A program made the position numbers and the translations under genes. Shown here piece by piece: positions 762 to 23,011 of a stretch of 64,000 nt of DNA; positions within the stretch are counted from its first letter, which is position 1, and every line of letters begins with the position of its first letter. Origin of the DNA: Blastocystis hominis (lineage: Eukaryota; Sar; Bigyra; Opalinata; Blastocystidae); assembly GCF_000151665.1 (NCBI RefSeq), contig NW_013171817.1, forward strand, positions 248,001 to 312,000. The letters are read 5' to 3'. The notes under the pieces are model-generated. The model searched no databases. It worked only from the letters and a program-made list of their open reading frames with translations, and was not told the DNA's origin.

Positions 762-832
762 GATGGGGACAACGAGGGACGACTTCGATTCCTCCCCATT
801 GTCTTGTTGACTAAGGTAAAGAGAGAAAGACC

Positions 833-4876: not shown

Positions 4877-4896
4877 GGGAGACCGTTGGTCTCCCC
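4876..4896. repeat. GC-rich hairpin GGGGAGACC-GTT-GGTCTCCCC
   Basis: Perfect 9-bp stem with a 3-nt loop, directly at the stop codon of the 232-aa gene. It is a single-hairpin member of the element-specific hairpin family. Confidence 0.85.
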
Positions 4897-4917
4897 ACAT
4901 TGTTCCTCCCATAGTAA

Positions 4918-7167: not shown

Positions 7168-7237
7168 TCATTAGACGTGGAATGTAGGGGTTGTCTTCGA
7201 CAAAGGGGAGACATTATTCTTTTCACTTTGACTTCAT

Positions 7238-7327
7238 GGAGCAGCGAAGCTGCTCCGGGGAAATCGTAGATTTCCCCATACATAGGGGCGATGTACATCG
7301 CCCCGGGAGGAAACTTCGTTTCCTCCC
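7238..7327. repeat. Cluster of four GC-rich hairpins
   Basis: Four perfect hairpins in a row: GGAGCAGC-GAA-GCTGCTCC (7238-7256), GGGGAAATC-GTA-GATTTCCCC (7257-7277), GGGGCGATGTACATCGCCCC (7285-7304) and GGGAGGAAAC-TTC-GTTTCCTCCC (7305-7327). They form two back-to-back pairs with CCGGGG or CCCGGG at the joints. They fill most of the gap before the ATG at 7336. Confidence 0.88.
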
Positions 7328-7335
7328 TACAATAA

Positions 7336-8376: not shown

Positions 8377-8462
8377 GGGGCAGCAACGCTGCCCCGGGAG
8401 GAAGCATGGCGGAACGAAGTTCCGCCGGGGCGACAAAGTCGCCCCAAAGCTCTGCTTCCTCC
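8377..8462. repeat. Nested hairpin array across the protease start
   Basis: GGGGCAGC-AAC-GCTGCCCC (8377-8395) is followed by an outer stem GGAGGAAGCA (8397-8406) that pairs with TGCTTCCTCC (8453-8462). The loop holds two more hairpins: GGCGGAAC-GAA-GTTCCGCC (8408-8426) and GGGGCGAC-AAA-GTCGCCCC (8427-8445). The inner pair is exactly 19+19 nt, so one unit appears to have inserted into the loop of another. The array contains the predicted start codon of the protease gene. Confidence 0.88.
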
Positions 8463-8882
8463 GTATTGAAGAAATTGTATATGCACGGCTACATGAATGT
8501 GGATGCTGAACCAATGACTTTCGATGAAGTCCGTTCCTTGGCCAAGCAACTCGAGATACCCGACTTCGATGTCATGGAATTGGACAAGTACAAGAGACTG
8601 GCCAAGAAGTACAAAGAACCAGCGAATTGCATCATCTGGATACCATTCGAGGATAATAGTAAGCTTGGTCATTTCGTGTCTTGCTTCCGTGAACCCGATG
8701 GCACGCTGAACTACCAGGACAGCTTTGGTGAGATGAATGACTTCCCGTTGGCAGGTACGAACCGTGTGTTCCGTGTGAACAAAGTGAAATACCAGTCGAT
8801 CTTTGCCAACAACTGTGGCTACCTGGCACTCCTTCACTTGTACACGCACGACGCTGTTGACCCGGCGATCCAGAGGTTATAA
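8406..8882 (+). CDS. Adenain-like cysteine protease (maturation protease)
   Basis: 158 aa. The catalytic layout of adenovirus-type/Ulp1-like proteases is visible: His in Leu-Gly-His-Phe-Val-Ser (about residue 89), an acidic residue in Tyr-Gln-Asp-Ser-Phe-Gly (about 104), Gln in the Lys-Tyr-Gln-Ser segment before the active site, and Cys in Asn-Asn-Cys-Gly-Tyr-Leu-Ala-Leu (about 138). Known members cut capsid and core precursors during virion maturation. The annotated start lies in a hairpin array, so the first 20 or so residues (Ser/Ala/Gly-rich) are hairpin-encoded. The in-frame Met near 8480 could be the older start; neither has the TAAATG context. Confidence 0.82.
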   Translation: MAERSSAGATKSPQSSASSVLKKLYMHGYMNVDAEPMTFDEVRSLAKQLEIPDFDVMELDKYKRLAKKYKEPANCIIWIPFEDNSKLGHFVSCFREPDGTLNYQDSFGEMNDFPLAGTNRVFRVNKVKYQSIFANNCGYLALLHLYTHDAVDPAIQRL

Positions 8883-8924
8883 CTATAACCTATTAAAATC
8901 ATTAATACACAAATACAAATAGAA

Positions 8925-9770
8925 ATGAAATTCGAAGAGGTTGATTTTTATGATTATAAGATCCGCATGTGCCTTGATAATGGTATTCGCATGTACCTTG
9001 TCTCTGATCTGCTTCGGCAGTACAACGAGAAGCACGGTACAAACAAGATTTTCGCACATTATCTTGAAAATAAACAAACTCAAGAACTGCTTCGAAAACG
9101 TTGTGAGAAGACTGGTCATCGGAATTCCGATGACCAGGCAAATGGCGCCCACAACGACAAGATTGACATTCCTGATGTGATTCAGTATATCAAAACTACA
9201 ACATTCGGCGGTGCTAACCAGGGTTACATTGTTTGTGAAGAATTGCTTCACGCATGCCTCATGTGGGCAGATCCTGACTTTGCTTGGGATGTGTATAGAT
9301 TCCTCACTCGTCTTCGAGAGGAGGACAATGACTACCTTCGAAAGGCAAATGAAGAGCTGAAGCAGGAAAACAAGGAACTCAAGAATCGCCGTGTGCCAAA
9401 TAAAGTAGGTCAACAATGGTACTTTTTCATAACGTACATTATCGTTGAAAATGATGATAATGTGCACATCTATTCACAACATGTTAAATCAGATAAATGG
9501 AAGAGTACATGTTCCAAAATGGATAGAGAGGGACGTGTATGTGTGTATAGAGTGAAAGACATACCGAATGGTTTCACGTTCAAAGACGAGATCGATAAAA
9601 TCCTTTTAGACTTGTGTAAGAAGTATGGTGGGAAAAAGGTACGTAAGACTCATTATACAATTCCAATGGATGTATGGGAAAAAGAGAGATTTGACATTAT
9701 TCCAGAAATAGAGAAAGAAGCAAAGCAGGCTCGTGTTGGACTTGGTTGGCGAAGTGACTTGGATGGTTAG
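8925..9770 (+). CDS. KilA-N domain protein
   Basis: 281 aa. Residues of about 20-130 match the KilA-N DNA-binding fold, including the Gly-Gly-Ala-Asn-Gln-Gly-Tyr-Ile-Val segment, then Glu-Leu-Leu-His-Ala-Cys-Leu-Met-Trp-Ala-Asp-Pro-Asp-Phe-Ala and a following helix. A short coiled coil (about 135-155) leads to a C-terminal domain with alternating strands of the kind attached to KilA-N/Bro proteins in large DNA viruses. The likely role is DNA binding or regulation. A perfect 26-bp palindrome (9112-9137) lies in frame near residues 63-71. The gene ends just before a CCAAAGTAAA motif and converges on the ATPase gene. Confidence 0.75.
   Translation: MKFEEVDFYDYKIRMCLDNGIRMYLVSDLLRQYNEKHGTNKIFAHYLENKQTQELLRKRCEKTGHRNSDDQANGAHNDKIDIPDVIQYIKTTTFGGANQGYIVCEELLHACLMWADPDFAWDVYRFLTRLREEDNDYLRKANEELKQENKELKNRRVPNKVGQQWYFFITYIIVENDDNVHIYSQHVKSDKWKSTCSKMDREGRVCVYRVKDIPNGFTFKDEIDKILLDLCKKYGGKKVRKTHYTIPMDVWEKERFDIIPEIEKEAKQARVGLGWRSDLDG
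9112..9137. repeat. Perfect 26-bp palindrome in the KilA-N gene
   Basis: Starts CTGGTCATCGG, has GAATTC at its centre and ends CCGATGACCAG; the two halves match without a mismatch or loop. It differs from the GC-rich hairpins in having no 3-nt loop and a lower GC content. Confidence 0.9.
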
Positions 9771-9795
9771 CCCAAAGTAAATATGGATGTCTCGA

Positions 9796-11154
9796 CTATG
9801 CCAGTCCATACCAAGACCGTAGTCCCTTACTCTTCTCCTTTTTACTTTGTCGTACATTGCTATCTTTAGGTTGATCCACGTTTGCCATGCCGTCTCTCGG
9901 TTTCTGTACGAACTGGAATTCCTTGGTGTTGATAGCTTTGCTGTAGTCCTGTGGTTTGATTTCAACGGCCTCTTTGATGTCCAAGAGATTGTACGTGCGA
10001 CTCTTGTCTCTCTTGTTTCTCTTGTCCTCACTTCTCGCTATACCCTTACCAAGTTCCTCTTCGAGTTGCTGCACTTGTCGTTGTTTCTCTTCCACTTCTT
10101 TGCGTTTTTGTTCATCACTCAATGCCTTTGGTAACTTCGATCGCATCTTGTTGATCGCTTGTTGTTTGCTACTCAGCTCGTATGGGACGTACTCGACCAG
10201 TGAATCGTCATCCAGGTAGTACCATCGTGTGTGCATGCCCATCTGGATATCACGAAGTACCTCGGATAGATTACTCGGTGGTGGTATCTTCATTTTGCGC
10301 CACAAATCCTCTCGTCCAAGGATATCGTAGTACAAGAAGATTCGAGTGGCGTTATCCAGAATCTTGTTGCTCAATCGAGAGAATCCTTGGAAGGCAATGA
10401 AGCAACTGGTCTTTCGATGTCGACTCATGCAAGCCATGGTGTCCATGAAGTTCACCACCCAGTGATCGTTCGGCTTCGTGTACAAGTCGTCGAAGATGTA
10501 GATCGAGGGGTATGTGGTGTCATTGTAGATGGCCACACTTGATCCATCGTCATTCAATTGTTTGTACGCGACGTCCTCACTGTCCGTGAATTCTGGACGC
10601 ACCTCACTATCGGTGTTGATCCATTGTGTCTTGATGCCTGCTTTGTTGGCGACATGTTTGAGCACTTGTGGACACTTGTTTTCATAGCTGACCTTTCCCA
10701 TGAAGAAGCAGATCTTGTCGAACGAATGAGGTATCTCGTAGCACAACTGGTTGATGAGGAACGACTTGCCCGACTTGGAAGGAGCAATGATGAGTGTGAA
10801 TTGATTGAGGAATGTGTCCTGACAATCGAGTTCCCAGTCGAACTTCATAATGCCCATGCTCTCCTTGTTCTGTCGAAGATCCTGCAATTGCTCGTCAATG
10901 GTTTGTTCTGGTTGGATGTAGTCGGCTAGTTCTCGCAGTATTTTGGCATATTGCTTGCTCTTCTCTTCATCGGTTTCATTCTCCATCCGTTGTTTGATGG
11001 TATCCTGCATTACTTCGGCTTGATTGAGCGTATTTTCTGTTCTTCTTGTCAATCGTTTGTTATTATACGGACATCGATGGTTAAATCGTCTTATTCGATT
11101 CTTGATCGAGAGTAGTGTAGTGTCTATGTTGGGAATAATGGGGTTGTCTTCCAT
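9796..11154 (-). CDS. FtsK/HerA-type genome packaging ATPase
   Basis: 452 aa, starting at TAAATG on the minus strand. Walker A is Ala-Pro-Ser-Lys-Ser-Gly-Lys-Ser at residues 124-131. Walker B is Ile-Tyr-Ile-Phe-Asp-Asp-Leu-Tyr with the acidic pair at 221-222. A later Cys-Phe-Ile-Ala-Phe-Gln-Gly-Phe-Ser segment fits the sensor region. The first 110 and last 90 residues are highly charged and helical. This matches the A32-like packaging ATPase found in nearly all Polintons, which drives DNA into the capsid. It converges with the KilA-N gene and shares its upstream region with a CCAAAGTAAATA motif. Confidence 0.85.
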   Translation of the reverse strand: MEDNPIIPNIDTTLLSIKNRIRRFNHRCPYNNKRLTRRTENTLNQAEVMQDTIKQRMENETDEEKSKQYAKILRELADYIQPEQTIDEQLQDLRQNKESMGIMKFDWELDCQDTFLNQFTLIIAPSKSGKSFLINQLCYEIPHSFDKICFFMGKVSYENKCPQVLKHVANKAGIKTQWINTDSEVRPEFTDSEDVAYKQLNDDGSSVAIYNDTTYPSIYIFDDLYTKPNDHWVVNFMDTMACMSRHRKTSCFIAFQGFSRLSNKILDNATRIFLYYDILGREDLWRKMKIPPPSNLSEVLRDIQMGMHTRWYYLDDDSLVEYVPYELSSKQQAINKMRSKLPKALSDEQKRKEVEEKQRQVQQLEEELGKGIARSEDKRNKRDKSRTYNLLDIKEAVEIKPQDYSKAINTKEFQFVQKPRDGMANVDQPKDSNVRQSKKEKSKGLRSWYGLA

Positions 11155-11159
11155 TTATT

Positions 11160-11247
11160 AGGGAGGAACTTCGTTGCCCCTATTTACTTTGGTTATCACG
11201 ACATCCGCGATGCCCAAAGTGAAAAAGGAATCTATCACACATACCTC
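11160..11247. promoter_or_regulatory. Intergenic segment upstream of the ATPase, motif pair and decayed hairpin
   Basis: Contains TTTACTTTGG near 11176, its inverted relative CCCAAAGTGAAAA near 11214, and a degenerate hairpin (GGGAGGAACTTCGTTGCCCC). On the minus strand these lie just upstream of the ATPase TAAATG start. A promoter role is inferred only from recurrence of the motif elsewhere in the element. Confidence 0.35.
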
Positions 11248-11781
11248 TTACAAGAAATCGCAATCGAAGACACTATTCTTATCCTTGATCTTGATTTGCG
11301 TTGCTGTGAGTGATATGTACGAAAACTTATCACCATTTTTGCCCTCAAATTCATTGCTCGTACCAGTTACTACGATATCGATCGTTGCATCCTTGTATTC
11401 GCGAAGATCGGCACAGGGCACATTTCGCAGATCGATCTTGATCGGTTTCTTGTCGTTATTCACGATCTTCGTGTTCGGACTCAATTTCACTTTGAACTGG
11501 GTCTCGCCATCGTATTCACTGTACGGCTGATTCTCTCTCTTCGTCTTATCGAGGATTCTTTTGAACTCTTCCGATTGCTCCTTGGGCAGTGTGATGGAGA
11601 TAGTGTTGAACAGTTTCTTCTTGTCTGTTTCGAACTTCGAGTTGTCACCCACGAAAACAATGGTAGCATCGGTGATCTTGCAGACATACTTAGCCGATTC
11701 GCCTTCTTTCTTGAATCCAGTCGAAGTGAGAGACACATTGGAAGCATTGGAAAGATCGAAAACCTGAATCTTGTTGCTCAT
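11248..11781 (-). CDS. Small protein, possible single-stranded DNA-binding (OB-like) protein
   Basis: 177 aa, soluble, mixed charge with alternating hydrophobic residues typical of a beta barrel. The C-terminal part has a strand pattern with an acidic tail (Phe-Asp-Cys-Asp-Phe-Leu). Small acidic-tailed beta-barrel proteins often serve as single-stranded DNA-binding proteins in viruses with protein-primed or displacement replication, which is a plausible role next to a family B polymerase. I see no diagnostic motif, so this is a guess from shape. Confidence 0.4.
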   Translation of the reverse strand: MSNKIQVFDLSNASNVSLTSTGFKKEGESAKYVCKITDATIVFVGDNSKFETDKKKLFNTISITLPKEQSEEFKRILDKTKRENQPYSEYDGETQFKVKLSPNTKIVNNDKKPIKIDLRNVPCADLREYKDATIDIVVTGTSNEFEGKNGDKFSYISLTATQIKIKDKNSVFDCDFL

Positions 11782-11831
11782 ATCTATTTATATTTATTTA
11801 TTGAAATCTTTAAGTGATATTAGTTAGGCGT

Positions 11832-11923
11832 GGGGAAGCTACGCTTCCCCGGGGAGCCTGCGGCTCCCCTTACGCTCCCACCTGTGGGGCAGCATCGCTG
11901 CCCCGGGAGCGTTTTACGCTCCC
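11832..11923. repeat. Two double hairpins at the 3' end of the capsid gene
   Basis: First pair: GGGGAAGC-TAC-GCTTCCCC (11832-11850) and GGGGAGCC-TGC-GGCTCCCC (11851-11869). Second pair: GGGGCAGC-ATC-GCTGCCCC (11886-11904) and GGGAGCGT-TTT-ACGCTCCC (11905-11923). The stop codon of the minus-strand gene lies within the last hairpin, so a hairpin now forms that gene's 3' end. Confidence 0.88.
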
Positions 11924-13203
11924 ACAGTGTTGGCACGGATCATGATGAGGTGCATCTGGATCGTCGCTGCAACATCCTCTTCCAACTCGATTTCGAACTG
12001 GATCTGATTCGATGCTCGCATCGGGAACCACTCGGCCAACGGGAAGGCGAAGATGCGGAACTGATTCAACCAGGTCTTGTACGTCAACAGCGTGTCGTAC
12101 TCGTCGGAACGACTATTGCAAAGATAGTCCATCCATTCGAAGAACGTGTGATCAATTCCATCAGGTGTGTTCGTGTTGTCCACATTGATGATACGCTTCT
12201 GTTCACCAGCGATGTTCAAGGAGATACGTTTGAATCGCACATCAAGGAGTTCCGAGAAATCACCATCGTCGTCCGTGAACATCATGAACATCATCTTGAC
12301 GGGGAAGTTGACCAGCACACGATCATCGATGAAGTTCTGGCCAGAAGGAATACGGAACGTCTTGGTCATGATCTGGTTCTTCACCAACTGAGTGTCTTCA
12401 GGATCGAAGGTCGAATCATCGCTCGTCTTGTAACTGTGATACCAAAGCGTACACGTATCGAAGTATACACCGGTGAAAGCCGTGGCTGATGGAACAGCGT
12501 CCGGACTTGTAGCGGTATTGATTTTGCCAGCATCGATGTAGAAGTATGCATCGTCGTTCGTGGGATAGATCTGAGCATCCATCTGCGTGAGATTGATGAA
12601 TCGTTCCTGAGAACAACCTTCGAAGATGTCTGCAAAGTTCACATTGATCGTCGTGTACGCCGTGGTCGAATTGTTGGGCTGTACGAACTTGAGCATGTTG
12701 TAGAACAACTTCCCACCATAAGGTCGACCCAGGATGGCCGCAGCTCTCTCGGTTTCATCGTCAGTATCGTAGTCCAATGCATCGTAGTAGATGTAGGACA
12801 GTTCCTTCAATCCTTCATTCACCACATTGTTGTGCTTGTTGTCCGTGAGCGCATTCAAGAGTGACCGGATCTGGCCGATGTTTTCATTGTCTGCACTCAG
12901 AGGCAAGGACGCCAAGTTCTCACCATTCCAATAGGTGTACGTGACCTTCGTGTTGTTCACAATGCCCGACATGTTCTTCTTCACCGGAACATAGAATACC
13001 TTGGGTGAACCTGTTGCGTTATTTGCCAACCCGGTGATCTTGAGCTTGAACGTCATTCGAGACTTGTACAGATTGAAGTACACGTCATCACCGGATGGTG
13101 CGATCGTCCAATTGATCACATCGGTCGACTTGATGTTATTGGACTGATTGCTGAACACAATCTGCGATTCGTAGTTATGCACAGGAGGAATTGTAGTAGC
13201 CAT
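11914..13203 (-). CDS. Candidate major capsid protein (double jelly-roll type)
   Basis: 429 aa, starting at TAAATG. It is beta-rich, with no membrane segments and few cysteines. The early strands lie within residues 25-60 and again in the second half (about 280-400). The end has a Phe-Pro-Leu-Ala-Glu-Trp-Phe-Pro segment followed by long strands (Ile-Gln-Phe-Glu-Ile-Glu-Leu, then Ile-Gln-Met-His-Leu-Ile-Met-Ile), like the closing strands of double jelly-roll capsid proteins. Length and position near the ATPase support the call. The alternative is that the 1008-aa protein is the main capsid component; a structure prediction would settle it. The stop codon falls in a hairpin. Confidence 0.6.
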   Translation of the reverse strand: MATTIPPVHNYESQIVFSNQSNNIKSTDVINWTIAPSGDDVYFNLYKSRMTFKLKITGLANNATGSPKVFYVPVKKNMSGIVNNTKVTYTYWNGENLASLPLSADNENIGQIRSLLNALTDNKHNNVVNEGLKELSYIYYDALDYDTDDETERAAAILGRPYGGKLFYNMLKFVQPNNSTTAYTTINVNFADIFEGCSQERFINLTQMDAQIYPTNDDAYFYIDAGKINTATSPDAVPSATAFTGVYFDTCTLWYHSYKTSDDSTFDPEDTQLVKNQIMTKTFRIPSGQNFIDDRVLVNFPVKMMFMMFTDDDGDFSELLDVRFKRISLNIAGEQKRIINVDNTNTPDGIDHTFFEWMDYLCNSRSDEYDTLLTYKTWLNQFRIFAFPLAEWFPMRASNQIQFEIELEEDVAATIQMHLIMIRANTVGA

Positions 13204-13244
13204 TTACTACAGGGAGAAAAAAACAAATCGTCCCCCATACATAA

Positions 13245-14546
13245 ATGGCAACCACAGCAGAGAAACTTGTATATCTCCAGAACGGAGTGTTCAAACGCAA
13301 GGAGATGACGAATGGTCTCCAGTACTACTCGGACGGCTCATTCGACACATTCCCATTACCGAGTGGGAATGGAAACTACGTGCTCACCAACAACAACAAT
13401 GTATTCACATGGACGGACGCGGGTGTCGTAGTACCTGACCAGCCTGAAGAGTTCACCACGCTCGACAATTCGTACTTCAAAGACAGTAACAGTCAGGCGA
13501 TCACCATTGCTGCCAAAGGAACGATTCCATACTTTGTCAACAATAGCACCTTTGGTGAACTCGACTTGCCGGGTAGCGGCAAGTACTTGCTGAACATGAG
13601 CGATGATGGTGTCCCTTCATTCTCGACAATTGATGCAACTACGATCAACACGGCTATCGGTCTCGGCAACACGTCGAACAAGTTCGCGATTGCCAACTGG
13701 AACTCGACAACGAGCACTCGTACAAATCTGTTCCTGCCAGATCAGTCCGGGACGTACATCCTGAAAGGAGTAGAGGCTGGGGCTTTCGGAATTCAGTACA
13801 CATTCGAGACATTGAACGCCTCAACTCTATTCCACGATACCCTCGGTGTACAATCGACAAACATGTGTCTCATTGCTTACAAGGATAATACTGCATATGG
13901 TGTAACCGTACCTGCAATGGGTGTTTCTTCTGGTTATTTTGTATTCAAGAAGGAAACAAATAATGAAGTACCCACGACGAGCGTCCTTGACGCCTCTACC
14001 ATCTACCAGGACATCCTCGGCTGCACTAGCACGGAGCGGTGTATCGTGATCAACGATGGAGCGGGTGTGAGCAAGTTGACCATCCCGTCCAACTCAGGAT
14101 CGTACGTCTTGAATGTATCTAGCAGTGGTGTGTCCTTTTCAACACTGCCTGCCAAGCTCTCCAAGACGTTCACGTACACCTGGTCAGGCAGCGGTCACAG
14201 TGTCGTGTCCGAGTATCTCGGATCAGACAATTCGAACTTGACGGAAGGGCTCATATTATCTTCGAACAGCAAGTATCTGGTCACGATCGATTTGAGTCTC
14301 AAGTGTGGTAACTACGAACAGGCATTCGTAGGCTTTACAGACACGCCGACCTTGGTAATCACTACGTCTCAAGCAACGTTGCTGAAGACAACACTTGACA
14401 ACCCATCCCCAACAATGAATGTGTCTGGCACATCGATTGTTACACCGACAAAGGATGGCGCACTATCGCTCGTTGTGACACGCAGCGGTGATACAACTAT
14501 CTCGCACTTATACTCGAACTTCCAAGTCACGATTGTAGAACTGTGA
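13245..14546 (+). CDS. Fibre- or spike-like protein with repeated shaft units
   Basis: 433 aa, starting at TAAATG, 41 bp from the divergent capsid gene start. The first 300 residues contain spaced repeats of a Gly-x-Tyr-[Val/Ile/Phe]-Leu-x(3-6)-Gly-x-x-[Phe]-[Ser/Thr]-x-Leu type (near residues 43, 107, 166 and 285), with Ser/Thr/Asn-rich linkers, as in trimeric viral fibre shafts. The last 130 residues (from about 305) form a beta-rich block with Gly-Phe-Thr-Asp-Thr and Leu-Val-Val-Thr-Arg-Ser-Gly strands that could be a receptor-binding head. The fibre role is inferred from this pattern and from pairing with the capsid gene. Confidence 0.5.
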   Translation: MATTAEKLVYLQNGVFKRKEMTNGLQYYSDGSFDTFPLPSGNGNYVLTNNNNVFTWTDAGVVVPDQPEEFTTLDNSYFKDSNSQAITIAAKGTIPYFVNNSTFGELDLPGSGKYLLNMSDDGVPSFSTIDATTINTAIGLGNTSNKFAIANWNSTTSTRTNLFLPDQSGTYILKGVEAGAFGIQYTFETLNASTLFHDTLGVQSTNMCLIAYKDNTAYGVTVPAMGVSSGYFVFKKETNNEVPTTSVLDASTIYQDILGCTSTERCIVINDGAGVSKLTIPSNSGSYVLNVSSSGVSFSTLPAKLSKTFTYTWSGSGHSVVSEYLGSDNSNLTEGLILSSNSKYLVTIDLSLKCGNYEQAFVGFTDTPTLVITTSQATLLKTTLDNPSPTMNVSGTSIVTPTKDGALSLVVTRSGDTTISHLYSNFQVTIVEL

Positions 14547-14628
14547 GGGGAGACGTAGTCTCCCCCGGGGCAACATAGTTGCCTCCCTACTTTAAGGGAC
14601 AAAGTGAAGAAGGAAGCCTTCGGCTTCC
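14547..14628. repeat. Double hairpin plus single hairpin after the fibre-like gene
   Basis: GGGGAGAC-GTA-GTCTCCCC (14547-14565), GGGGCAAC-ATA-GTTGCCTCCC (14567-14587, one bulge) and GGAAGCC-TTC-GGCTTCC (from 14612). They begin one base after the stop codon. CAAAGTGAAA and TTTACTTTGG motifs follow near 14634 and 14673. Confidence 0.82.
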
Positions 14629-14674
14629 CACAAAGTGAAATAAGGGCGACTTGGAAACCATAGCTTCCAGTCTT

Positions 14675-15040
14675 TTACTTTGGCGGTAATCGTTTACCCG
14701 TTACACATTCGAGTTGATCAAATGCAACACCATCGATATCAATGATAATTATATCACCACCTAATGTCATCACACGATGACCTTCGATATCATAGATATT
14801 CTCATTGAAAGCACGGAGTTCAGCAAGTCCTCCTACTTCACCCCACTTCACTATGTATTTATCATCATTACATGATTTCACAAGAAGATGTTGAAGATCA
14901 GGTGAATTTATCATCATATAAGGAGGATTATACTCATTATGATAATTTGTACCTTTGGGATCATCAACAAATGAATTAATCATATCATGCACATATTTAC
15001 GTGTGATATCAAGACGTTCATCATTCATCCAACAGTTCAT
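14675..15040 (-). CDS. Small hypothetical protein
   Basis: 121 aa. It starts at CAAATG and its stop codon lies in a CCAAAGTAA motif. Hydrophilic, with a C-terminal half containing Asp-Ile-Ile-Ile-Ile-Asp-Ile-Asp-Gly-Val-Ala-Phe, which could be a beta hairpin. No recognisable family. Codon use resembles the other element genes but the coding region is more AT-rich. Confidence 0.45.
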   Translation of the reverse strand: MNCWMNDERLDITRKYVHDMINSFVDDPKGTNYHNEYNPPYMMINSPDLQHLLVKSCNDDKYIVKWGEVGGLAELRAFNENIYDIEGHRVMTLGGDIIIIDIDGVAFDQLECVTGKRLPPK

Positions 15041-15088
15041 TTGTATTTCTATTTATGTTTACATTATTTAAATCTATTTAGGCATCCC

Positions 15089-15280
15089 TCATTTCACTTT
15101 AATCTCTGTCGGACTGATCGATATGTCACTTCCACTGTCGTCATCGGATCCATTCTTCTCGTTGTACACGCACAGGCAGTGACATCTGTCCTTGCATTTC
15201 GAGTCCACCACCAGTTTGTGGTTCTTCCTTCCACTCATCCATTTCCATGCACTTTTCAGCCATTGAATAAAGCGGTTCAT
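15089..15280 (-). CDS. Tiny Cys-containing hypothetical protein
   Basis: 63 aa, with a TAAATG start. A Trp-rich amphipathic N-terminus is followed by a Cys-Lys-Asp-Arg-Cys-His-Cys-Leu-Cys cluster and a Ser/Asp-rich tail. Its start codon is two bases from the divergent integrase start. It may be a small metal-binding or membrane-associated protein; I do not recognise it. Confidence 0.4.
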   Translation of the reverse strand: MNRFIQWLKSAWKWMSGRKNHKLVVDSKCKDRCHCLCVYNEKNGSDDDSGSDISISPTEIKVK

Positions 15281-15282
15281 TT

Positions 15283-16365
15283 ATGAATGAAATCAAGGAA
15301 CTAAGGAAACCAGCCAAGCGAAAAGGTGCAACTCGAGTGATCATCAGTTCATTCAAGAGAAACATATACTTCATCGATCTCATCGATTTCTCTTCCAAAC
15401 AAGACAAATGGATTCAGGAAGTGTTGGGCAGACAGAAGAGTACAGGATTCCACAAGAATCGTGGATACAAGTATGTCCTTGTATGCATTGATGGATATTC
15501 GAAATACCTGATGACTCGGCGACTGAAGAGCAAGAGTGCCACAGAAGTCACGCATGCGATGAAGGACATCATTCAAACATACGGACCACCAAAGCATATT
15601 TGCTCTGATCGAGGTACCGAGTTCACCAATGCCATCTTTCGTACCAACATCTTGGACAAGTATGACATCACCATGTATCACATGGATTCAGCGAATAAGG
15701 CAGTACTAGCCGAACGAGCAATTCGAGATATCAAGGAAGACATCATGGTTCCATTCAATCAATCGAAAGGTGTATGGTTCGATTTGATCGATGGTGCGGT
15801 TCGTAGACACAATGCAAGGAAGAACAGAGACACCGGATATACACCCACTGACATTTGGAACAACGATATCTTGTACACGGAGAAGACAGAACCATCCAAC
15901 ATGACAGCGAAGGACACGACGCCTCAATTCGATGTGGGTGATTATGTTCGAGTGACACGAAGACCTCGTGTTCTGGAAAAGCGATCATTGACGAGCAAAT
16001 GGTCTCAGGACTTGTATCAAGTTGTTGACATTGACGATCGATTCATGCCATTGATGTACGAAGTGAAGAATATGGAAAGCGGTAGCAAGCAGAAGTGCTA
16101 TCATTGGGAACTCCTGGCAAGCAAATGCAAACCACAGCCAGCACCACCAGTCACGCGATCCAAGAGTCGAAAGGAACCCAATGCATTGAGAGAGGTAGCA
16201 AGGTCACATCGACCCATTACGAGGAGTCAGAATGGGACGACAAAGTCGTCCCGGCGGAACGAAGTGGGGCGACTTTGTCGCCCCGGGAAGCCGAAGGCTT
16301 CCCACGAAGTTCCGCCACAGAAGAAGCAGAAGAAGCGTCCCCAAGATGTTCGAAAACGATCGTGA
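15283..16365 (+). CDS. DDE integrase (retroviral-like, Polinton type)
   Basis: 360 aa. The catalytic triad is visible: Asp in Phe-Ile-Asp-Leu-Ile-Asp-Phe (residues of about 27-32), Asp in Cys-Ser-Asp-Arg-Gly-Thr-Glu-Phe (about 108), and Glu in Leu-Ala-Glu-Arg-Ala-Ile-Arg-Asp (about 145). A C-terminal SH3/chromo-like segment begins at Phe-Asp-Val-Gly-Asp-Tyr-Val-Arg (about 215). It joins element DNA to the target and would have made the 6-bp GATACG duplication. The last 45 residues are Arg/Lys/Ser-rich, and a nested hairpin array (16234-16316) is read in frame through about residues 318-345. The 3' end overlaps the convergent minus-strand gene by 149 bp. Confidence 0.9.
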   Translation: MNEIKELRKPAKRKGATRVIISSFKRNIYFIDLIDFSSKQDKWIQEVLGRQKSTGFHKNRGYKYVLVCIDGYSKYLMTRRLKSKSATEVTHAMKDIIQTYGPPKHICSDRGTEFTNAIFRTNILDKYDITMYHMDSANKAVLAERAIRDIKEDIMVPFNQSKGVWFDLIDGAVRRHNARKNRDTGYTPTDIWNNDILYTEKTEPSNMTAKDTTPQFDVGDYVRVTRRPRVLEKRSLTSKWSQDLYQVVDIDDRFMPLMYEVKNMESGSKQKCYHWELLASKCKPQPAPPVTRSKSRKEPNALREVARSHRPITRSQNGTTKSSRRNEVGRLCRPGKPKASHEVPPQKKQKKRPQDVRKRS

Positions 16366-16936
16366 TGCTCTTCACACCACCTAGAAGCATGAGAGGAAGA
16401 TTCGAATACGTACGAAGGACAGGAGAGTTGTAGGGGGAAGCAACGCTTCCCCCGGGGGCACTACGTGCCCCCTCGTTGCCCCCAATATTCACAACAGCAT
16501 AACCAGTATGAGACACAAGACTATTCAATGTATCGATGTACGGTCTGTCTAGGATAGGCGTGTTGTCAAACGTGACTAGCACTCGATAACCCTTTTCAAC
16601 CACGGATTCGATTGACATGCAATCGTTGAACATGTCTTCAGGAAGGTACGTTATGACAGTCGTGGTTATCAGGTACGATCCGGACGGCATAGGCGGCATA
16701 CCATCACCACCCCATTCGCTATTGAATGATTCGGTAGTTTCTGGTGTGTATTCGAAGACAAATGCTTCGTTCGCTTTCACGATACAAGCCGCACTCCCCC
16801 ACGAGTACTGAGGAACACCATCAACTGTCTCTCGAATTAGCACATGATGACCGTCCTTCTCTGGCATGTTGATGAGCATGTTGTCGAGCTTCTTGAACGT
16901 GTAGTTGTTTCCATTGCTGCTGAAGATGTACGACAT
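16217..16936 (-). CDS. Hypothetical protein with hairpin-encoded tail
   Basis: 239 aa, starting at TAAATG. The first 155 residues look like a folded domain with mixed strands and helices; I do not recognise it. From about residue 155 the sequence becomes Gly/Ser/Arg/Pro-rich because it is read through the hairpin pair at 16433-16472. It then runs antisense to the integrase C-terminus and through the nested array. The ancestral stop codon may have been upstream of 16433, with the tail gained when hairpins inserted. Confidence 0.5.
   Translation of the reverse strand: MSYIFSSNGNNYTFKKLDNMLINMPEKDGHHVLIRETVDGVPQYSWGSAACIVKANEAFVFEYTPETTESFNSEWGGDGMPPMPSGSYLITTTVITYLPEDMFNDCMSIESVVEKGYRVLVTFDNTPILDRPYIDTLNSLVSHTGYAVVNIGGNEGARSAPGGSVASPYNSPVLRTYSNLPLMLLGGVKSITIVFEHLGDASSASSVAELRGKPSASRGDKVAPLRSAGTTLSSHSDSS
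16234..16316. repeat. Double hairpin interrupted by a second double hairpin with a 7-bp duplication
   Basis: The outer unit is GGGACGAC-AAA-GTCGTCCC (16234-16252) plus GGCGGAAC-GAA-GTTCCGCC. The second outer hairpin is split by a 38-bp insert (16266-16303) made of GGGGCGAC-TTT-GTCGCCCC and GGGAAGCC-GAA-GGCTTCCC. The insert is flanked by the exact 7-bp repeat ACGAAGT (16259-16265 and 16304-16310). Removing insert and one repeat restores a hairpin identical to the copy at 8408-8426. The net gain is 45 bp, so the reading frame is kept. Confidence 0.93.
16433..16472. repeat. Double hairpin downstream of the integrase
   Basis: GGGGGAAGC-AAC-GCTTCCCCC (16433-16453) and GGGGGCAC-TAC-GTGCCCCC (16454-16472), joint CCCGGG. 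Read in frame by the minus-strand 239-aa gene. Confidence 0.88.
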
Positions 16937-16940
16937 TTAC

Positions 16941-17543
16941 TTATTTACTTTGGGGGAGACATCGTCTCCCCCGGGGCAACAGCGTTGCCCCCGTTTGTCT
17001 TTGATATGCACGAACGTACACACCCTTCAAACACGCGCCATCATCGATGAACAGATCGGACAACTCGGGAGGCACTTCATCATCCACGGAGGGGGAAGCT
17101 TCGCTTCCCCCGGGGCGACTGTGTCGCCCCACCGCCACCTTGAAGACCACGCGTACATAGTAGTTGGAGAAGAAGTAAACAGCACGATTCTCGGTTACCA
17201 CAGGTACCACATAAGGCTGTGTGTCATACGTCCTACAGAAAACGTTCAGAGGCACACCGAGCAAACCGTTGGATTTCAATTGAGGCAATAGATACTCCCA
17301 TTCATCCTCGGTAAACAAAGGTGGACGAGTTTCATCCAATGTCATCTCGATGCAATCATAGTCGTGCAATATTAAACCACAGTTCACATTTGCTTGCGGG
17401 GAGCAAACACTGAAGCCGAATAGACGCTCGGAATTGATCGGATACTTGGTGTGAATGATAATGTCGGCGAGTTCGATATTCTCGTCTTCACAAGTGCGTA
17501 TCAGGGAAGACCATGTGTTGTTCTCTGTTTTCTTGTACTTCAT
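16941..17543 (-). CDS. Hypothetical protein with two in-frame hairpin inserts
   Basis: 200 aa, with a start at CTAAATG. Residues 1-135 read as a compact beta/alpha domain (Cys-Gly-Leu-Ile-Leu-His-Asp-Tyr-Asp-Cys, later strands Ala-Val-Tyr-Phe-Phe-Ser). The double hairpin at 17091-17130 is read in frame near residues 138-151, and the one at 16952-16991 encodes the last 15 or so residues. The stop codon lies in a CCAAAGTAAATAA motif four bp before the next gene start. It may be a distant relative of the 239-aa neighbour in size and layout, but I see no clear sequence match. Confidence 0.5.
   Translation of the reverse strand: MKYKKTENNTWSSLIRTCEDENIELADIIIHTKYPINSERLFGFSVCSPQANVNCGLILHDYDCIEMTLDETRPPLFTEDEWEYLLPQLKSNGLLGVPLNVFCRTYDTQPYVVPVVTENRAVYFFSNYYVRVVFKVAVGRHSRPGGSEASPSVDDEVPPELSDLFIDDGACLKGVYVRAYQRQTGATLLPRGRRCLPQSK
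16952..16991. repeat. Double hairpin at the 3' end of the 200-aa gene
   Basis: GGGGGAGAC-ATC-GTCTCCCCC (16952-16972) and GGGGCAAC-AGC-GTTGCCCC (16973-16991). It encodes the C-terminus of the minus-strand gene. Confidence 0.88.
17091..17130. repeat. Double hairpin inside the 200-aa gene
   Basis: GGGGGAAGC-TTC-GCTTCCCCC (17091-17111) and GGGGCGAC-TGT-GTCGCCCC (17112-17130). In frame, without stops. Confidence 0.88.
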
Positions 17544-17597
17544 TTAGGGAAGCATCTAGGGTTAAAAGAGAAAATATAAATATATAAATATATATAA

Positions 17598-18026
17598 ATG
17601 AATAGACCTACTCATACTTTGAATCCCAATACTGGCCGAGAAATCCAAATCAACGGAGTTCGCTTCTGGAACCTTCTCAAGCGTGGATACAAGTACGACG
17701 AGAAATTGAATCGCTTGTACGATACAACATTGCCTGAAGGTACGACGAAGTATGTTCCCAAGTCGAGAATACTTTCTCCCAGCAATCGCTCCATGATTAT
17801 TGGTGGCACAGCATACTACGAGTTACTCCATGACAACTACAGACGCGTAAAAGGACAATGGGTGAAAATGACCAAAGAAGAAGCTGAGGCATACGATAAT
17901 GATCCAGACATTAGCATTGCATTCGCTGACCCCAATTCTAGTGATTCTGATTCATCGGAATCCGAGTTCTACGACATCGATGAATTCGAGTACGATGCGG
18001 ATGGTCATGCCATTTTCCCATTCTAG
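17598..18026 (+). CDS. Small protein with an NPxTG-type adaptor motif
   Basis: 142 aa, starting at TAAATG. The N-terminus carries Asn-Pro-Asn-Thr-Gly-Arg-Glu-Ile-x-Ile-Asn-Gly-x-x-Phe-x-x-Leu (residues 9-26). This motif recurs in large DNA viruses, where it is linked to a short adaptor domain. A second Gly-Gly-Thr-Ala-Tyr-Tyr-Glu-Leu-Leu segment is near residue 68, and the C-terminus is a Ser/Asp/Glu acidic tail. The adjacent polymerase gene begins with the same motif, so the two products may bind a common partner. Confidence 0.55.
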   Translation: MNRPTHTLNPNTGREIQINGVRFWNLLKRGYKYDEKLNRLYDTTLPEGTTKYVPKSRILSPSNRSMIIGGTAYYELLHDNYRRVKGQWVKMTKEEAEAYDNDPDISIAFADPNSSDSDSSESEFYDIDEFEYDADGHAIFPF

Positions 18027-18078
18027 GGATGCCTTCGGTAGCTCAAGGAGGAAGCCAAACTCCTAACTATTTCACTTT

Positions 18079-18115
18079 GGTCACACGTGTATCACCACTT
18101 AAAGATTATGTGACC
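18079..18115. promoter_or_regulatory. Short inverted repeat upstream of the polymerase gene
   Basis: GGTCACA at 18079-18085 pairs with TGTGACC at 18109-18115. It overlaps a TTTCACTTTGG motif, and its right arm ends nine bases before the PolB start codon. A regulatory role is only a possibility. Confidence 0.35.
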
Positions 18116-18124
18116 CTTATATAA

Positions 18125-21100
18125 ATGAGTTCACAACGCGAAGGATATACTATCAACCCTGAAACAGGAAAACAAATCAAAATCGGTGGGCCGACCTGGA
18201 AACGATTGGCTGCCAAGTACTACATGATCGGCGATACGTTCACCGATCAGACCATTCCTGACACGAGAGCCTATCTCTCGAGAAAGGTGTTTGGAAAAAA
18301 TATACCCGATGAATATATCGCCTTTTTCGCACCCTCAAAACGTGGGTTGCGTAAACGTGAAGTTGAGAAACACTATGATGACAGTGATAGTTTCCCTGAG
18401 CCTCCGAAACGTCCGTCACGCAAACGAGTGCGTGATCCTGCTGGAAAGCGCAAGTATCTCGTCGTGGGAAGCAAGGCATGGAACGAGCGGTACCTCGAGT
18501 ACGAGTGGGATGGGCACAAGTTCGGTGAGAAGCGACAACGTCACTTACCCGGTTACCTGAACACCGTGGAGAAGAGACGTGAAATGAGACGTAATAAGGC
18601 ATACGAACGATTCGATCGCAAGGTATCACAGGGACGATTGAGTGATGTGATCGATTCAACTCTCGGGTATGCACTCACATACTATCACACCGCGCAAGGA
18701 GACATGTACAAGGAATGGGTGAAAGAGAAACGAACCAAGAAGGACTTTCGCCTCAACAACGATTTTGACAACAGGTTGTGGGTTCGACTACCGGGTGAGA
18801 AGAGCGATGAAGAAGTGGAACCGATCAATCTCATATTCGATGAGACAAATGAATTCAATGAGGTCCTGAAGAAGTTCATCCTCAATGGTATGCGTGAATA
18901 CAATCAGTGCTTCATCACCATCATGGCATACAACCTCATGTTGACACATGACGGAGATCCCAAGATCCTCAACCTCACCGATGATCGATTGGGTCACCTC
19001 CGCATCGTTCGACGAGATCGCATCGATGAGTGGATCGAGGAGTACCTGAAATGGTACAAAAATGCTGTGGAAGAACAGGAGACAGAGGGAAGTGGGTTCG
19101 GGTACCATGGGTGGATCGGCTTCCACATTGAGATGTTCCCACTACGAACATTCGTGGGGTACAAGCAGCACACACCGTACGTCATCGGACGCACAGCGCT
19201 CAACCCGGATTTCGATGACAACCGGTGCCTGCAGCGGTGTCTCATTCTGGCCAGTGAAGGTGGGCACAAGATCGTCGCGAATTGCAAGATTGGCGATGCA
19301 ACCGTGTACAACAAGTGGTGGAAGCACCCTGAGAAGAACAAGGTGTTCGGAGTGACCATTCACGAAGTGGAGGAGGCGATGGGCATTCGCGACAATGCAC
19401 CCTTCGTAGGGGCAGCTTCGCTGCCCCGGGATGCCAAAGGCATCCCATTCGATGCAAGTGAAGAGAAATTCGCCGCATTGGAGGCATTGTTGAAAGTATC
19501 GCTCAACGTATTCGAGGTCACACTCTTGCCTGGATACACCGATAAGACGAAGGAACAATTCGATTTATTCACATGCGATGTCGTGTACAAAGGTAAGGAG
19601 AAATCACGTTCCCCTCTCTCCCTCTGCATCTTGAACGATCTGAATCTACCTGAGGGAACGCCCAAACACTTCTTGTACATCAAGGACTTGAACGACTTCA
19701 AGCATCGTATGATGCGACGAAGTGATGCGAAGAATGGAAATCTCTCAAGAAACGTGAAGTGCAGATTCTGTGACGACTTCTTCGGATCTCGCAAAGCCGT
19801 TCATGATCACGAAGTACAGGTACATCGTGAACTTGTCGATGAGAGTGATCAGTACGATTTGTCGAGCGAGGAGACTCGGTTGAGATTCACCAACCAACGA
19901 TATGAAATGCCAGCACCGGTCGTCGTGTACGCTGACTTCGAGTCGGCCATTGACGACAAGAACAGACACAAGCCGATCATGTTGTCCTGTCTAGCCGTGT
20001 CTCGTATCCCAGCCATTAACAACCAACTTCGAGTCTTCCATGCACCACATGAGAGCGAAGAAGACCTTCGTCCTTTCATGGACTATCTCACACAATTGCA
20101 GAGCAGAGTGAAAGAGTATCTCTTCGATGAATTACCACTCGAGAACTCTCCGAGCATCGAGAGGGACTTTCGTGCAACGACCGTGTGTCCCTTCTGTCAT
20201 GTGAAACTGGAGAACGACAAGGTGAGACATCATGCACATGTGGCAGGCGATTACACCACAGGGAATGGAGATGTACGCCACTTCGAAGCCGGGCAGTACA
20301 TCTGCACCTGTTGTACCAAGTGCAATCTCCAACTCTCGTTCAACAAGAAGAACTATCGTTTGCCAGTCTACTTCCACAATGGATCGCACTACGACTTCAC
20401 ATTCATCATGAAGATCATCGCGAGTCATTCAACCTCTAGTGACTCCTTGGAAGTCATTCCAACCACTGAAGACAAGGAGATGCAGATCGAGTACAATGGC
20501 ATTCAATTCAAGGACTCGTTGAAGCTCATCAGCAGTCCTCTCAGATCCATTGTGGCTCAGACACTCGGAGGCAACCTCGATTTGTATGTGCACACCAAAC
20601 AACAACTACGCAAGTACTGCGAGTCACGTGGCAAGCAATGGAATGACGAATACATCGATCTGTTGACACGAAAGGAACCCATGTTCTACAGTCTCATCAA
20701 GTCGTACGACACATTGAATAACACCACCATTCCTTCTCGTGAACAATGCATCGATGACATGAAAGGTGAAATGATGCCACAAGACGAGTATGATCACATG
20801 GTGAAGCTGTGGAAGACCTTCGATATCAAGACATGGGGTGAGTACTACGAGTTGTACAATGTACTCGATGTAACTCTCATGGCTGATGCATTCGAGCACT
20901 TCCGCGTTACCACACTGAAGGCATTCGGTGTTGATCCGATGCACTACATCACAGCACCACAAATGGCCTATTCGCTCTTCTTAAAGGTCACAATGGAGGG
21001 CGATCATAGCGAGAGTAGCCTCATGACCCTCGCAAGGAAATGGGCTCAGTACATCATGCGCATCAACGCGAATGAGGGACTTGAGGAGAAACAACTCGTG

Positions 21101-22684
21101 AAAGTGTTCTTGAACCGCATGGGTGAGTTCTATGAGAGCAAGGGAATTCGATTGATGGAGACAAATGAGATCGATGACTTCATGCGATTGTTGAAGAACC
21201 TGCGAGGAGGTATCACACAGATCGTGAAAAGGCATGCCAAGGTTGACATTGACAGCACCGCCAACAACGGAGAGCAATCATCCATCTACTACCTGGACGC
21301 CAACAACCTGTACGGTGGAGCCATGCATCGAATGATGCCTTATGAGTTGGTGGGTGTACCTGAGCGACGAGAAGTAATGGAAAGGATCAACCGTGATCCG
21401 AATGAATGGGTGCAATCACTCAATACGTTCGGCAAGTATGGGTTCTTCATCGAGTGCGACATCGAGGCACCAGTGGAACTCCATGATAAATTCAATGACT
21501 TACCATTCTTCCCCGTACAGAAGGCGGGCATGTACTCCGATGGAATCAAGAAGTACGCAGAGAAGAACGACATTGTGGACAAAGTGAAAGAGGTGAATAC
21601 ACCGAAACTCATTTGTGATCTTGTACCTCGACGCAAATATCTCGTGCACTACTCTCTGCTGCAATTGGGTCTTCAACAGGGTTATCACGTCACTCACATC
21701 CACCGCATCATCCGTTTCAAGCAGGCACCATTTATCTTCGAGTACGTGAACATGCTGAGTGAGAAACGAGCCAAGTCCAAGACTACTGTGGAGAAGAACC
21801 TGTATAAGCTGTTGGCAAACTCGACCTATGGCAAATTCGTGGAGACTGGGTTGAAACGAATGAAGGTGAAGTTCGCTAGCACGTGGAATGAACGTGAGGC
21901 TATCATCCAGAAGCACGGATACGACATGATTGCTGGGACCACCATGTATTCCGAGAATCTGATCGGCATCAAGCTGAACACACCGGTGCGCAAGGTGGAG
22001 AAGCCGTTCTTCATCGGGTTTGCCATTCTCGACATGTCGAAGCACATTATCTACGACTTCTATTACAATGTGCTCAAGACGACATTCGACACCGTGGAGT
22101 TGTTGGGACAGGACACGGATTCGCTCATCGTGCAGTTGAACGACCGTGGTAACATCGTCCACAAAATGTGCGATATGTACAAGTCGTTTGACTTTTCTGA
22201 GTTGGATAATACGAGCTACTTCTATGGTGAACTCGTGAAGTATTACGATCACGAAGTGGACAAGAGCAAGTTCCCTTCATTGGACTCGTTCCTCAACTTC
22301 AACAAGAAGTTGCCTGGTCCCATCTTCAAGGATGAGCATAACGGGCATCGCATCACAGAGTTCGTGGGACTTAGACCAAAGATGTACTGTTTGATTGACG
22401 AGAAGCATGTAGTGCATAACGCAGCGAAGGGAGTTCCTCGCAATGTGGTGATTGATGGAGAGAGGATGAGCGTGAAGAACATCGATCTGTACAAGCGCGT
22501 CCTCGAGGCAGAGAAGAGGGAAGATGCAGTGATCGAAGGCAGCTTCAAGCGTATCAACAACCAGGCCTTCAACATCAGCACGAAAGAACAAACCAAGACA
22601 CTCATGACTTGCACGGATAACAAACGTTGGATCTTGGACGACAACATACACACACTTGCATTCGGGCATTATAGACTGAAGTAA
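18125..22684 (+). CDS. polB: Protein-primed family B DNA polymerase
   Basis: 1519 aa, starting at TAAATG. Order of features: NPETGK adaptor-type motif (residues 10-25); Cys2-His2 finger near 545; exonuclease I Tyr-Ala-Asp-Phe-Glu near 600; Cys-rich cluster at 688-733; exonuclease II His-Asn-Gly-Ser-His-Tyr-Asp-Phe near 752; exonuclease III Tyr-Asn-Val-Leu-Asp near 911; polymerase motif A Tyr-Leu-Asp-Ala-Asn-Asn-Leu-Tyr-Gly near 1056; motif B Asn-Ser-Thr-Tyr-Gly-Lys near 1232; motif C Asp-Thr-Asp-Ser near 1332. All catalytic acids are present. It replicates the element, probably using a terminal protein as primer as in adenoviruses and other Polintons. No separate terminal protein is visible; the long N-terminal region could supply it. 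A 38-bp double hairpin is inserted in frame at residues of about 429-441. Confidence 0.93.
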   Translation: MSSQREGYTINPETGKQIKIGGPTWKRLAAKYYMIGDTFTDQTIPDTRAYLSRKVFGKNIPDEYIAFFAPSKRGLRKREVEKHYDDSDSFPEPPKRPSRKRVRDPAGKRKYLVVGSKAWNERYLEYEWDGHKFGEKRQRHLPGYLNTVEKRREMRRNKAYERFDRKVSQGRLSDVIDSTLGYALTYYHTAQGDMYKEWVKEKRTKKDFRLNNDFDNRLWVRLPGEKSDEEVEPINLIFDETNEFNEVLKKFILNGMREYNQCFITIMAYNLMLTHDGDPKILNLTDDRLGHLRIVRRDRIDEWIEEYLKWYKNAVEEQETEGSGFGYHGWIGFHIEMFPLRTFVGYKQHTPYVIGRTALNPDFDDNRCLQRCLILASEGGHKIVANCKIGDATVYNKWWKHPEKNKVFGVTIHEVEEAMGIRDNAPFVGAASLPRDAKGIPFDASEEKFAALEALLKVSLNVFEVTLLPGYTDKTKEQFDLFTCDVVYKGKEKSRSPLSLCILNDLNLPEGTPKHFLYIKDLNDFKHRMMRRSDAKNGNLSRNVKCRFCDDFFGSRKAVHDHEVQVHRELVDESDQYDLSSEETRLRFTNQRYEMPAPVVVYADFESAIDDKNRHKPIMLSCLAVSRIPAINNQLRVFHAPHESEEDLRPFMDYLTQLQSRVKEYLFDELPLENSPSIERDFRATTVCPFCHVKLENDKVRHHAHVAGDYTTGNGDVRHFEAGQYICTCCTKCNLQLSFNKKNYRLPVYFHNGSHYDFTFIMKIIASHSTSSDSLEVIPTTEDKEMQIEYNGIQFKDSLKLISSPLRSIVAQTLGGNLDLYVHTKQQLRKYCESRGKQWNDEYIDLLTRKEPMFYSLIKSYDTLNNTTIPSREQCIDDMKGEMMPQDEYDHMVKLWKTFDIKTWGEYYELYNVLDVTLMADAFEHFRVTTLKAFGVDPMHYITAPQMAYSLFLKVTMEGDHSESSLMTLARKWAQYIMRINANEGLEEKQLVKVFLNRMGEFYESKGIRLMETNEIDDFMRLLKNLRGGITQIVKRHAKVDIDSTANNGEQSSIYYLDANNLYGGAMHRMMPYELVGVPERREVMERINRDPNEWVQSLNTFGKYGFFIECDIEAPVELHDKFNDLPFFPVQKAGMYSDGIKKYAEKNDIVDKVKEVNTPKLICDLVPRRKYLVHYSLLQLGLQQGYHVTHIHRIIRFKQAPFIFEYVNMLSEKRAKSKTTVEKNLYKLLANSTYGKFVETGLKRMKVKFASTWNEREAIIQKHGYDMIAGTTMYSENLIGIKLNTPVRKVEKPFFIGFAILDMSKHIIYDFYYNVLKTTFDTVELLGQDTDSLIVQLNDRGNIVHKMCDMYKSFDFSELDNTSYFYGELVKYYDHEVDKSKFPSLDSFLNFNKKLPGPIFKDEHNGHRITEFVGLRPKMYCLIDEKHVVHNAAKGVPRNVVIDGERMSVKNIDLYKRVLEAEKREDAVIEGSFKRINNQAFNISTKEQTKTLMTCTDNKRWILDDNIHTLAFGHYRLK
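19409..19446. repeat. 38-bp double hairpin inside polB
   Basis: GGGGCAGC-TTC-GCTGCCCC (19409-19427) and GGGATGCC-AAA-GGCATCCC (19428-19446), exactly 19+19 nt. Flanks CTTCGTA and ATTCGAT share only a TTCG core, so a decayed 7-bp duplication is possible. The frame stays open. Confidence 0.9.
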
Positions 22685-22706
22685 AGGAAGCAATCTTTCA
22701 CTTTGA

Positions 22707-23005
22707 ACATCCATGGATACCATGGCCTACAATGGAAGTCAGGTTAACATTGCCGAAATTGGCAGCCATGGGTTTCCGCGCGTTTCTTGTTATGGACAAT
22801 AAGGTAGCCAGGCAGGCAATGGCAGGAAATGGCAGGAAATGGCAGTCATGGGTTTCCGCGCGTTTCTTGTTATGGACATCGAGGTGAACAGGTAGACAAT
22901 GGCAGAAAATGGCCGAAAATGGTCGAAAAATGGTCGAAAAAAGTTCACCGCGGTTATTTGGTAGAAAATGGATTTTCGCGTGTTTCGAGTCATTCCCCTA
23001 CTACT
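22707..23005. repeat. Right terminal inverted repeat, with internal duplication
   Basis: About 299 bp, inverted match to 542-761. It is longer by about 80 bp because a block is duplicated: a 32-nt stretch starting CATGGGTTTCCGCGCG occurs at 22767-22798 and 22847-22878. Ends CCCCTACTACT directly before GATACG. Confidence 0.93.
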
Positions 23006-23011
23006 GATACG
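23006..23011. repeat. Target-site duplication, right copy (GATACG)
   Basis: Identical to 536-541; marks the right junction of the element with host DNA. Confidence 0.92.

Follow-up and report, generated by a model that had tools for sequence, protein, structure and literature searches.

In the polinton-like proviruses of Blastocystis hominis, filled and empty alleles show that short double hairpins have inserted at single-copy targets, with direct duplication of a 4-8 bp unit whose inner edges are often altered. The C-terminal tail of one provirus integrase probably (at about 0.72) holds two generations of such a mobile element, with a break in a hairpin loop, joining of the element into the break and later spread as the proposed course of events. 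The window analysed is 64,000 nucleotides of contig NW_013171817.1 (positions 248,001 to 312,000), and coordinates are positions in it. The element is 36-42 bp in length and consists of two back-to-back hairpins, with stems mostly of 7-10 bp and 3-nt loops mostly closed by C-G; it usually starts with GGG and ends with CCC. Since the detector required G-rich starts and C-rich ends, this last feature is partly built in.

The array lies at 16228..16322 in the tail of the integrase ORF (15283..16365, + strand; Pfam rve, E 2.6e-12). By direct reading, 16234-16316 is an older hairpin pair in which the loop of hairpin 2 is split by a second pair of 38 bp, as the sequence-only reading had claimed. On the forward strand, the array begins with the left duplication copy of CAGAA (16228..16232), which is a single copy in the empty alleles L034 and L041, and with a T at 16233 as the inner edge beside it. 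Hairpin 1 of the older pair follows (16234..16252; in L013 and L019 it stands alongside an unsplit hairpin 2), and then the left half of hairpin 2 (16253..16265), ending in a first ACGAAGT (16259-16265). Next come the nested double hairpin (16266..16303, made of 16266-16284 and 16285-16303), which is absent from L013 and L019 with their single ACGAAGT, the second ACGAAGT (16304-16310) with the right arm of hairpin 2 (16304..16316), and the right copy of CAGAA (16318..16322). Without the insert and one ACGAAGT, the split hairpin is 19 nt long. It equals GGCGGAACGAAGTTCCGCC at 8408-8426, an identity also noticed from the letters alone, and natural alleles show this precursor. The double hairpin at 8408..8445 (+) has the restored hairpin 2 as its first hairpin and, by eye, splits a further hairpin (GGAGGAAGC...GCTTCCTCC). 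Since the outer pair (hairpins 1 and 2), flanked by CAGAA on both sides, is itself an insert at CAGAA, the locus results from two successive insertions. Folded as single-stranded DNA, the array takes the nested shape at -35.9 kcal/mol, and 0 of 200 shuffles were equally stable. An antisense ORF at 16217-16936 (-), which may be spurious, overlaps the integrase tail, and the array thus lies in two overlapping ORFs.

Is the pre-insertion state preserved elsewhere in the genome? In 18.7 Mb (40 contigs), the window and 39 further integrase tails were compared; these are the 40 scored of 170 candidates, and therefore more integrase copies may exist. The tail lengths step by exactly 45 bp within each right-flank group: 541, 586, 631 and 676 nt in L034, L013, the window and L009, and 532, 577, 622 and 667 nt in the second group. 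No hairpin is found at the place of the array in 13 of the 40 tails, only another hairpin pair in 2, and the outer pair without the nested insert in 9. The nested pair is present in 15 (in hairpin 1 in 9, in hairpin 2 in 5, in both in 1). The array of the last tail, L025, is rearranged; it looks as if a deletion had fused hairpin 1 with the end of a nested pair via the shared ACTTTGTCG. L034 equals the window state minus both pairs. Relatives lacking the insert, which the sequence-only reading had called for, were found in L013 and L019, which differ from the window state in lacking the nested pair and one of the two ACGAAGT copies, and the metagenome integrases P0001-P0003 have no tail insert either. 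These exact pre-insertion alleles bear on whether tandem duplication or replication slippage could have built the array from one ancestral hairpin, without an insertion step. The hairpins do share a general form and stand two head to tail. However, the nested stems (GGGGCGAC and GGGAAGCC) are unlike the outer stems, the duplicated flanks are target sequence and not hairpin sequence, and the precursors exist. A tandem origin is hardly credible, and for the array it is ruled out by the allele series. The condition that would have refuted the sequence-only reading, relatives pointing to tandem duplication with no insertion step, was thus decided in its favour.

Is a perfect 7-bp duplication the rule for these elements? 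A survey of 60 segments around the integrase and PolB genes gave 122 exact pairs with 44 stems. The stems vary greatly from site to site, so that for most elements no donor can be recognised. Sites with filled and empty alleles were curated by hand, with one hand-picked representative per site, and the resulting 34 sites may not be fully independent, because the copies are related and may recombine; 9 of them depend on a single empty allele. Flank identity below 93% was excluded in earlier site tables (in one, also 2 of 57 keys with fewer than 4 overlapping bases), and the 34 include site 14576, whose flanks are just 83% identical. Hairpin 2 is represented by a perfect allele, despite the imperfect ones in L012, L022 and L027. 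For hairpin 1, the loop of the empty representative is oppositely oriented, while in L021 and L030 the orientation agrees.

Over the 34 sites, the total insert length is 41-48 bp, with hairpin parts of 36-42 bp. The duplicated or overwritten stretch is 7 bp at 16 sites, 6 bp at 8, 8 bp at 5, 5 bp at 3, and 4 bp at 2. The exact flanking repeat is 1-7 nt with a mean of 3.94, against 1.23 for a mismatched-flank control. It reaches at least 4 nt at 18 of the 34 sites, against a control mean of 0.87 and a maximum of 5 in 5000 shuffles, and at 12 of the 25 non-nested sites taken alone (control mean 1.5%). The exact duplication is 3 nt or less at 16 of the 34 sites. The bases adjoining the hairpins are often not target bases, and the inner edges of the duplicated unit are often altered. 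General 7-bp flanking repeats, for which a survey had been proposed from the sequence alone, did not emerge, as the unit ranges from 4 to 8 bp. A perfect 7-bp duplication belongs to the GGGGCGAC+GGGAAGCC type at ACRAAGT targets and to one other pair nested in PolB. A universal 7-bp duplication was rejected: at palindromic loop targets, it is indistinguishable from a 5-bp duplication (T-38-A with CGAAG or CAGAA duplicated), and other hairpin types differ. A strict TG...CA end rule also failed for other hairpin types. The fixed-length target duplication of a DNA transposon or MITE was not seen, with a unit of 4-8 bp and an exact part of 1-7 nt.

Several of the double hairpins lie in the window, all on the forward strand. 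One at 16433..16472 is in the ORF 16217-16936 (-), with N = 48 and the duplication GTTG, and another (16952..16991) is at the edge of the ORF 16941-17543 (-). The one at 17091..17130 (N = 48) is filled in the window copy only, with 39 empty alleles. The one at 19409..19446 is inside PolB, with N = 45, the duplication TTCG, and 16 empty alleles. The list of window hairpins gives two further double hairpins within 11832..11923 (11832-11869 and 11886-11923) and two within 7238..7327 (7238-7277 and 7285-7327).

The GGGGCGAC+GGGAAGCC pair was found at four places, namely the two tail hairpins, another hairpin (14823), and one place outside hairpins (14630). In the CGAC-first orientation, the left flank is ACGAAGT or ACAAAGT, with one TCAAAGT, in 14 of 14 occurrences; in the AGCC-first orientation, it is ACTTTGT or ACTTCGT in 21 of 21, and the right flank is ACTTCAC in two, all these counts including orthologous copies, so that the sites are fewer. 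Such one-orientation ACRAAGT-like flanks mean either that targets are chosen directionally or that whole units are copied together with their flanks. The second possibility leads to an account without transposition, in which, as a provirus replicates, the polymerase switches at short identities, such as the ACGAAGT loops, and copies a flanked pair elsewhere. Besides the recurrence of the pair with its 7-mer flanks as one oriented unit, mixed flanks (ACTTCGT/ACTTTGT) in 4 of its occurrences argue for this, as does the L025 tail, which resembles a junction inside the array. Hairpin 2 of L012, L022 and L027 has unequal flanks, and copying is therefore favoured over insertion in these three. However, at most sites the pair is one not met at any other site of the set and the duplicated sequence is local, and no donor was seen with the flanks CATTG (PolB 21251), TTCG (PolB 19408) or AGTGTA (14653). 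The first insertion of each type would also remain to be explained. Thus, homology-directed copying is rather unlikely as the whole account. The sequence-only reading had taken the array as direct evidence of transposition-like insertion; the discrete step and the target duplication stand on the precursor alleles, while some of the spread among identical 7-mers may be homology-directed copying.

Targets fall in the hairpin loops of older elements more often than the share of such hairpins in the sequence would predict. Nine of the 34 targets are inside an older hairpin, and in all nine the target centre and the loop centre are 0-2.5 nt apart (two of these distances, for L034 and L039, were measured allowing one arm mismatch, and the flanks of L039 are poorly matched), whereas double hairpins account for 1.8% of the compared sequence (2.9% on the integrase side). 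The enrichment, but not the centring, could arise because insertions are tolerated in dispensable DNA. Taken at face value, the nested cases imply hairpin formation in living cells and cleavage close to the loop. The 3-nt loops also occur in both orientations at the same position (GAA/TTC, AAA/TTT and TAC/GTA) in several hairpins, for example in 16234-16252 across copies. Both orientations at one site fit inversion between the arms, which is another sign that hairpins form. Other hairpins have a constant loop orientation in the copies read.

For the insertion reading, it is likely that mobility proceeds via a staggered cut. Hairpins may be extruded during provirus copying or by supercoiling, and a staggered break may then open across one of their loops or some comparable short site. 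Double-hairpin DNA would be joined into the break, and filling of the overhangs would duplicate the target. The arrays may have spread later as proviruses recombined, loops inverted, and sequence was copied from one site to another with the same 7-mer.

In coding targets, the reading frame is mostly kept. The insert is a multiple of three at 21 of 22 ORF sites, against 5 of 11 elsewhere (Fisher p 0.0025; one of the 34 sites is unclassed). Site 17615, which is 17 nt inside its ORF, was classed as coding by hand; when it is moved, the counts are 20 of 21 against 6 of 12 (p 0.0047). The odd coding site, 16344, was scored out of frame from L047 (N = 43), and L033 has N = 45 there by reading. The coding ORFs other than the integrase and PolB have no family match above the curated cut-off. 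Three distant PolB relatives (P0062, P0063 and P0064) lack exactly the 15 residues added at 19408, and a closer metagenome PolB (P0061, 84%) has them. Frame keeping is likely due to selection and not to the mechanism. The sequence-only reading had held that a 45-bp gain keeps the frame and would explain why copies survive in genes. The gain of 45 bp, the kept frame, and the tolerance of copies in the integrase, PolB and neighbouring ORFs were all seen, but frame keeping is better explained if selection acted on inserts of differing length than if their size were fixed at 45 bp. It is possible, and I propose it tentatively, that the hairpins represent a class of coding-free mobile DNA in which a hairpin is both passenger and landing pad, arrays nest within a provirus, and selection keeps the frame. 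If a hairpin is a landing pad, each insertion would offer new loops for the next round.

In the window, 43 hairpins were listed (perfect stem of at least 7, loop of 3-5), and 27 of them begin with GG and end with CC. All 27 are at 4876-19446, inside the provirus, and elsewhere in the window no GG...CC hairpin was found, which speaks against chance. Genome-wide, exact matches number 83 for GGGGCGACNNNGTCGCCCC and 78 for GGCGGAACNNNGTTCCGCC, while the reversed control patterns have 0. Among 100 listed of the 161 hairpins (50 of the 83 and 50 of the 78), on which the genome placement rests, 96 are at most 18 kb from an element anchor, a zone covering 12% of the genome. Two places hold the remaining 4, in fragments aligning to the element (L088 and L089). 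On the PolB side, 8 of 20 segments (L069, L070, L071, L073, L074, L082, L085 and L086) are free of such hairpins over 5.1-5.8 kb. The hairpins at 4876, 8377 and 14547 start exactly at or just past the ends of ORFs, and at 8377 the stop codon TGA is immediately 5′ of the G run. Mimiviridae transcripts end at hairpin-forming palindromes (PMC4402537, in excerpt), and window hairpins that abut ORF ends, like these three, would suit a similar role as transcript-processing or gene-end signals. Against this, many hairpins are inside the integrase and PolB genes, and their presence varies among copies of one gene, down to the hairpin-free PolB-side segments. Such a role is very improbable, and it was rejected as the main reading on account of the variable presence and the inserts inside genes.

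The carrier is a polinton-like provirus at 542..23005 (strand not assigned), with terminal inverted repeats, the ends AGTAGTAGGG...CTACTACT, and a 6-bp duplication, GATACG, at 536-541 and 23006-23011. It encodes a family-B polymerase (PolB) domain, the rve integrase, and a KilA-N domain protein (8925-9770). For a capsid protein, which in polinton-like proviruses would be a double jelly-roll major capsid protein, domain searches in Pfam, PHROGs and NCBIfam gave no match among its given ORFs. This copy adjoins SNRNP200-like, cation-ATPase and HSP70 genes, which are ordinary eukaryotic neighbours. A 6-bp end duplication was found in 3 of 6 provirus end pairs (the window, C36:172444/188833 and C5:249654/272034) and was absent from the other 3 (C5:370514/392590, C5:467874/490012 and C2:5222/27882). 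With at least 40 integrase copies genome-wide, the polinton-like proviruses are a large family. They look recently active, since none of the 31 PolB copies scored, out of 296 first-look candidates, has an internal stop. The one named relative of the integrase is from Blastocystis sp. BT1 (59% identical). No relative was found in a viral-contig collection, from which records of this or very near genomes may be omitted, and no report of this Blastocystis family was found among the titles and abstract starts of openly licensed papers.

The double hairpins have no room for an enzyme gene, and their enzyme must therefore be supplied by the provirus or the host. No movement was observed, and domain searches of the provirus ORFs gave no mobility enzyme for the hairpins; the integrase was the sole mobility protein found, weak matches (e.g., E 0.28) being taken as chance. 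Could the hairpins be minimal non-autonomous passengers that the rve integrase moves? The elements listed show linkage to the provirus, one type (T-GG...CC-A) is reminiscent of rve-type ends, and some duplications (ACAGAA and AGTGTA) are 6 bp long, like GATACG. Nevertheless, the hairpin unit varies from 4 to 8 bp (7 bp at 16 of 34 sites and 6 bp at 8), against 6 bp at the provirus copies with matching flanks, and the hairpins do not share the provirus end AGTAGTAGGG. The integrase is thus an improbable mover, and the variation of the unit is untidy for one transposase.

The mobility of short hairpin elements in organelles has long been suspected. Among bacteria, the Rickettsia palindromic elements are likewise selfish palindromes maintained within protein-coding genes because they leave the frame intact, but they are longer. 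Polintons (Mavericks) and polinton-like viruses, with an rve integrase, PolB, inverted terminal repeats and a 6-bp duplication, are the type of the carrier; they are the vehicle and not the hairpin element, and they are not known to carry hairpin passengers. The main text of PMC10120064 gave no match for 'hairpin' or 'palindrom' in a word search. The titles and abstract starts of openly licensed literature, together with excerpts of PMC10675990, had nothing on such hairpins in Blastocystis or polintons, which is weak evidence of absence.

The double-hairpin elements (DHEs) are known from fungal mitochondrial DNA, in Allomyces and Schizosaccharomyces (PMC10085805 and PMC2800124, both in excerpt). 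Excerpts of the same reports describe them as short GC-rich DNA of two hairpins, potentially mobile and uneven among relatives. Two adjacent hairpins in a short GC-rich unit were also found here (122 pairs; four window pairs were folded). In contrast, DHEs are mitochondrial, and in excerpts of the fission-yeast report they are intergenic or in rRNA genes (PMC10085805), whereas here they are in a provirus among ordinary host genes, with inserts in ORFs, target duplications and loop targeting; 100 of the 100 listed hairpin copies are element-linked. The Allomyces DHEs reportedly have no flanking duplications (PMC2800124, in excerpt), while here the duplication is above the control at the 34 sites. 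The mitochondrial GC clusters of yeast (GC42 and kin) are also mobile, short, palindromic and GC-rich, their changes concentrate in the loops, and their target nucleotides are duplicated (PMC4478555, in excerpt). They differ in a two-nucleotide AG target and a mostly intergenic location (PMC4478555, in excerpt), compared with the 4-8 bp unit and the frame-keeping ORF inserts found here. Since at least 40 related integrase copies, and filled and empty alleles at dozens of sites, are present in one genome, the rules of insertion can be read directly. The same genome combines target duplications, nested events, and frame-keeping inserts in polymerase and integrase genes.
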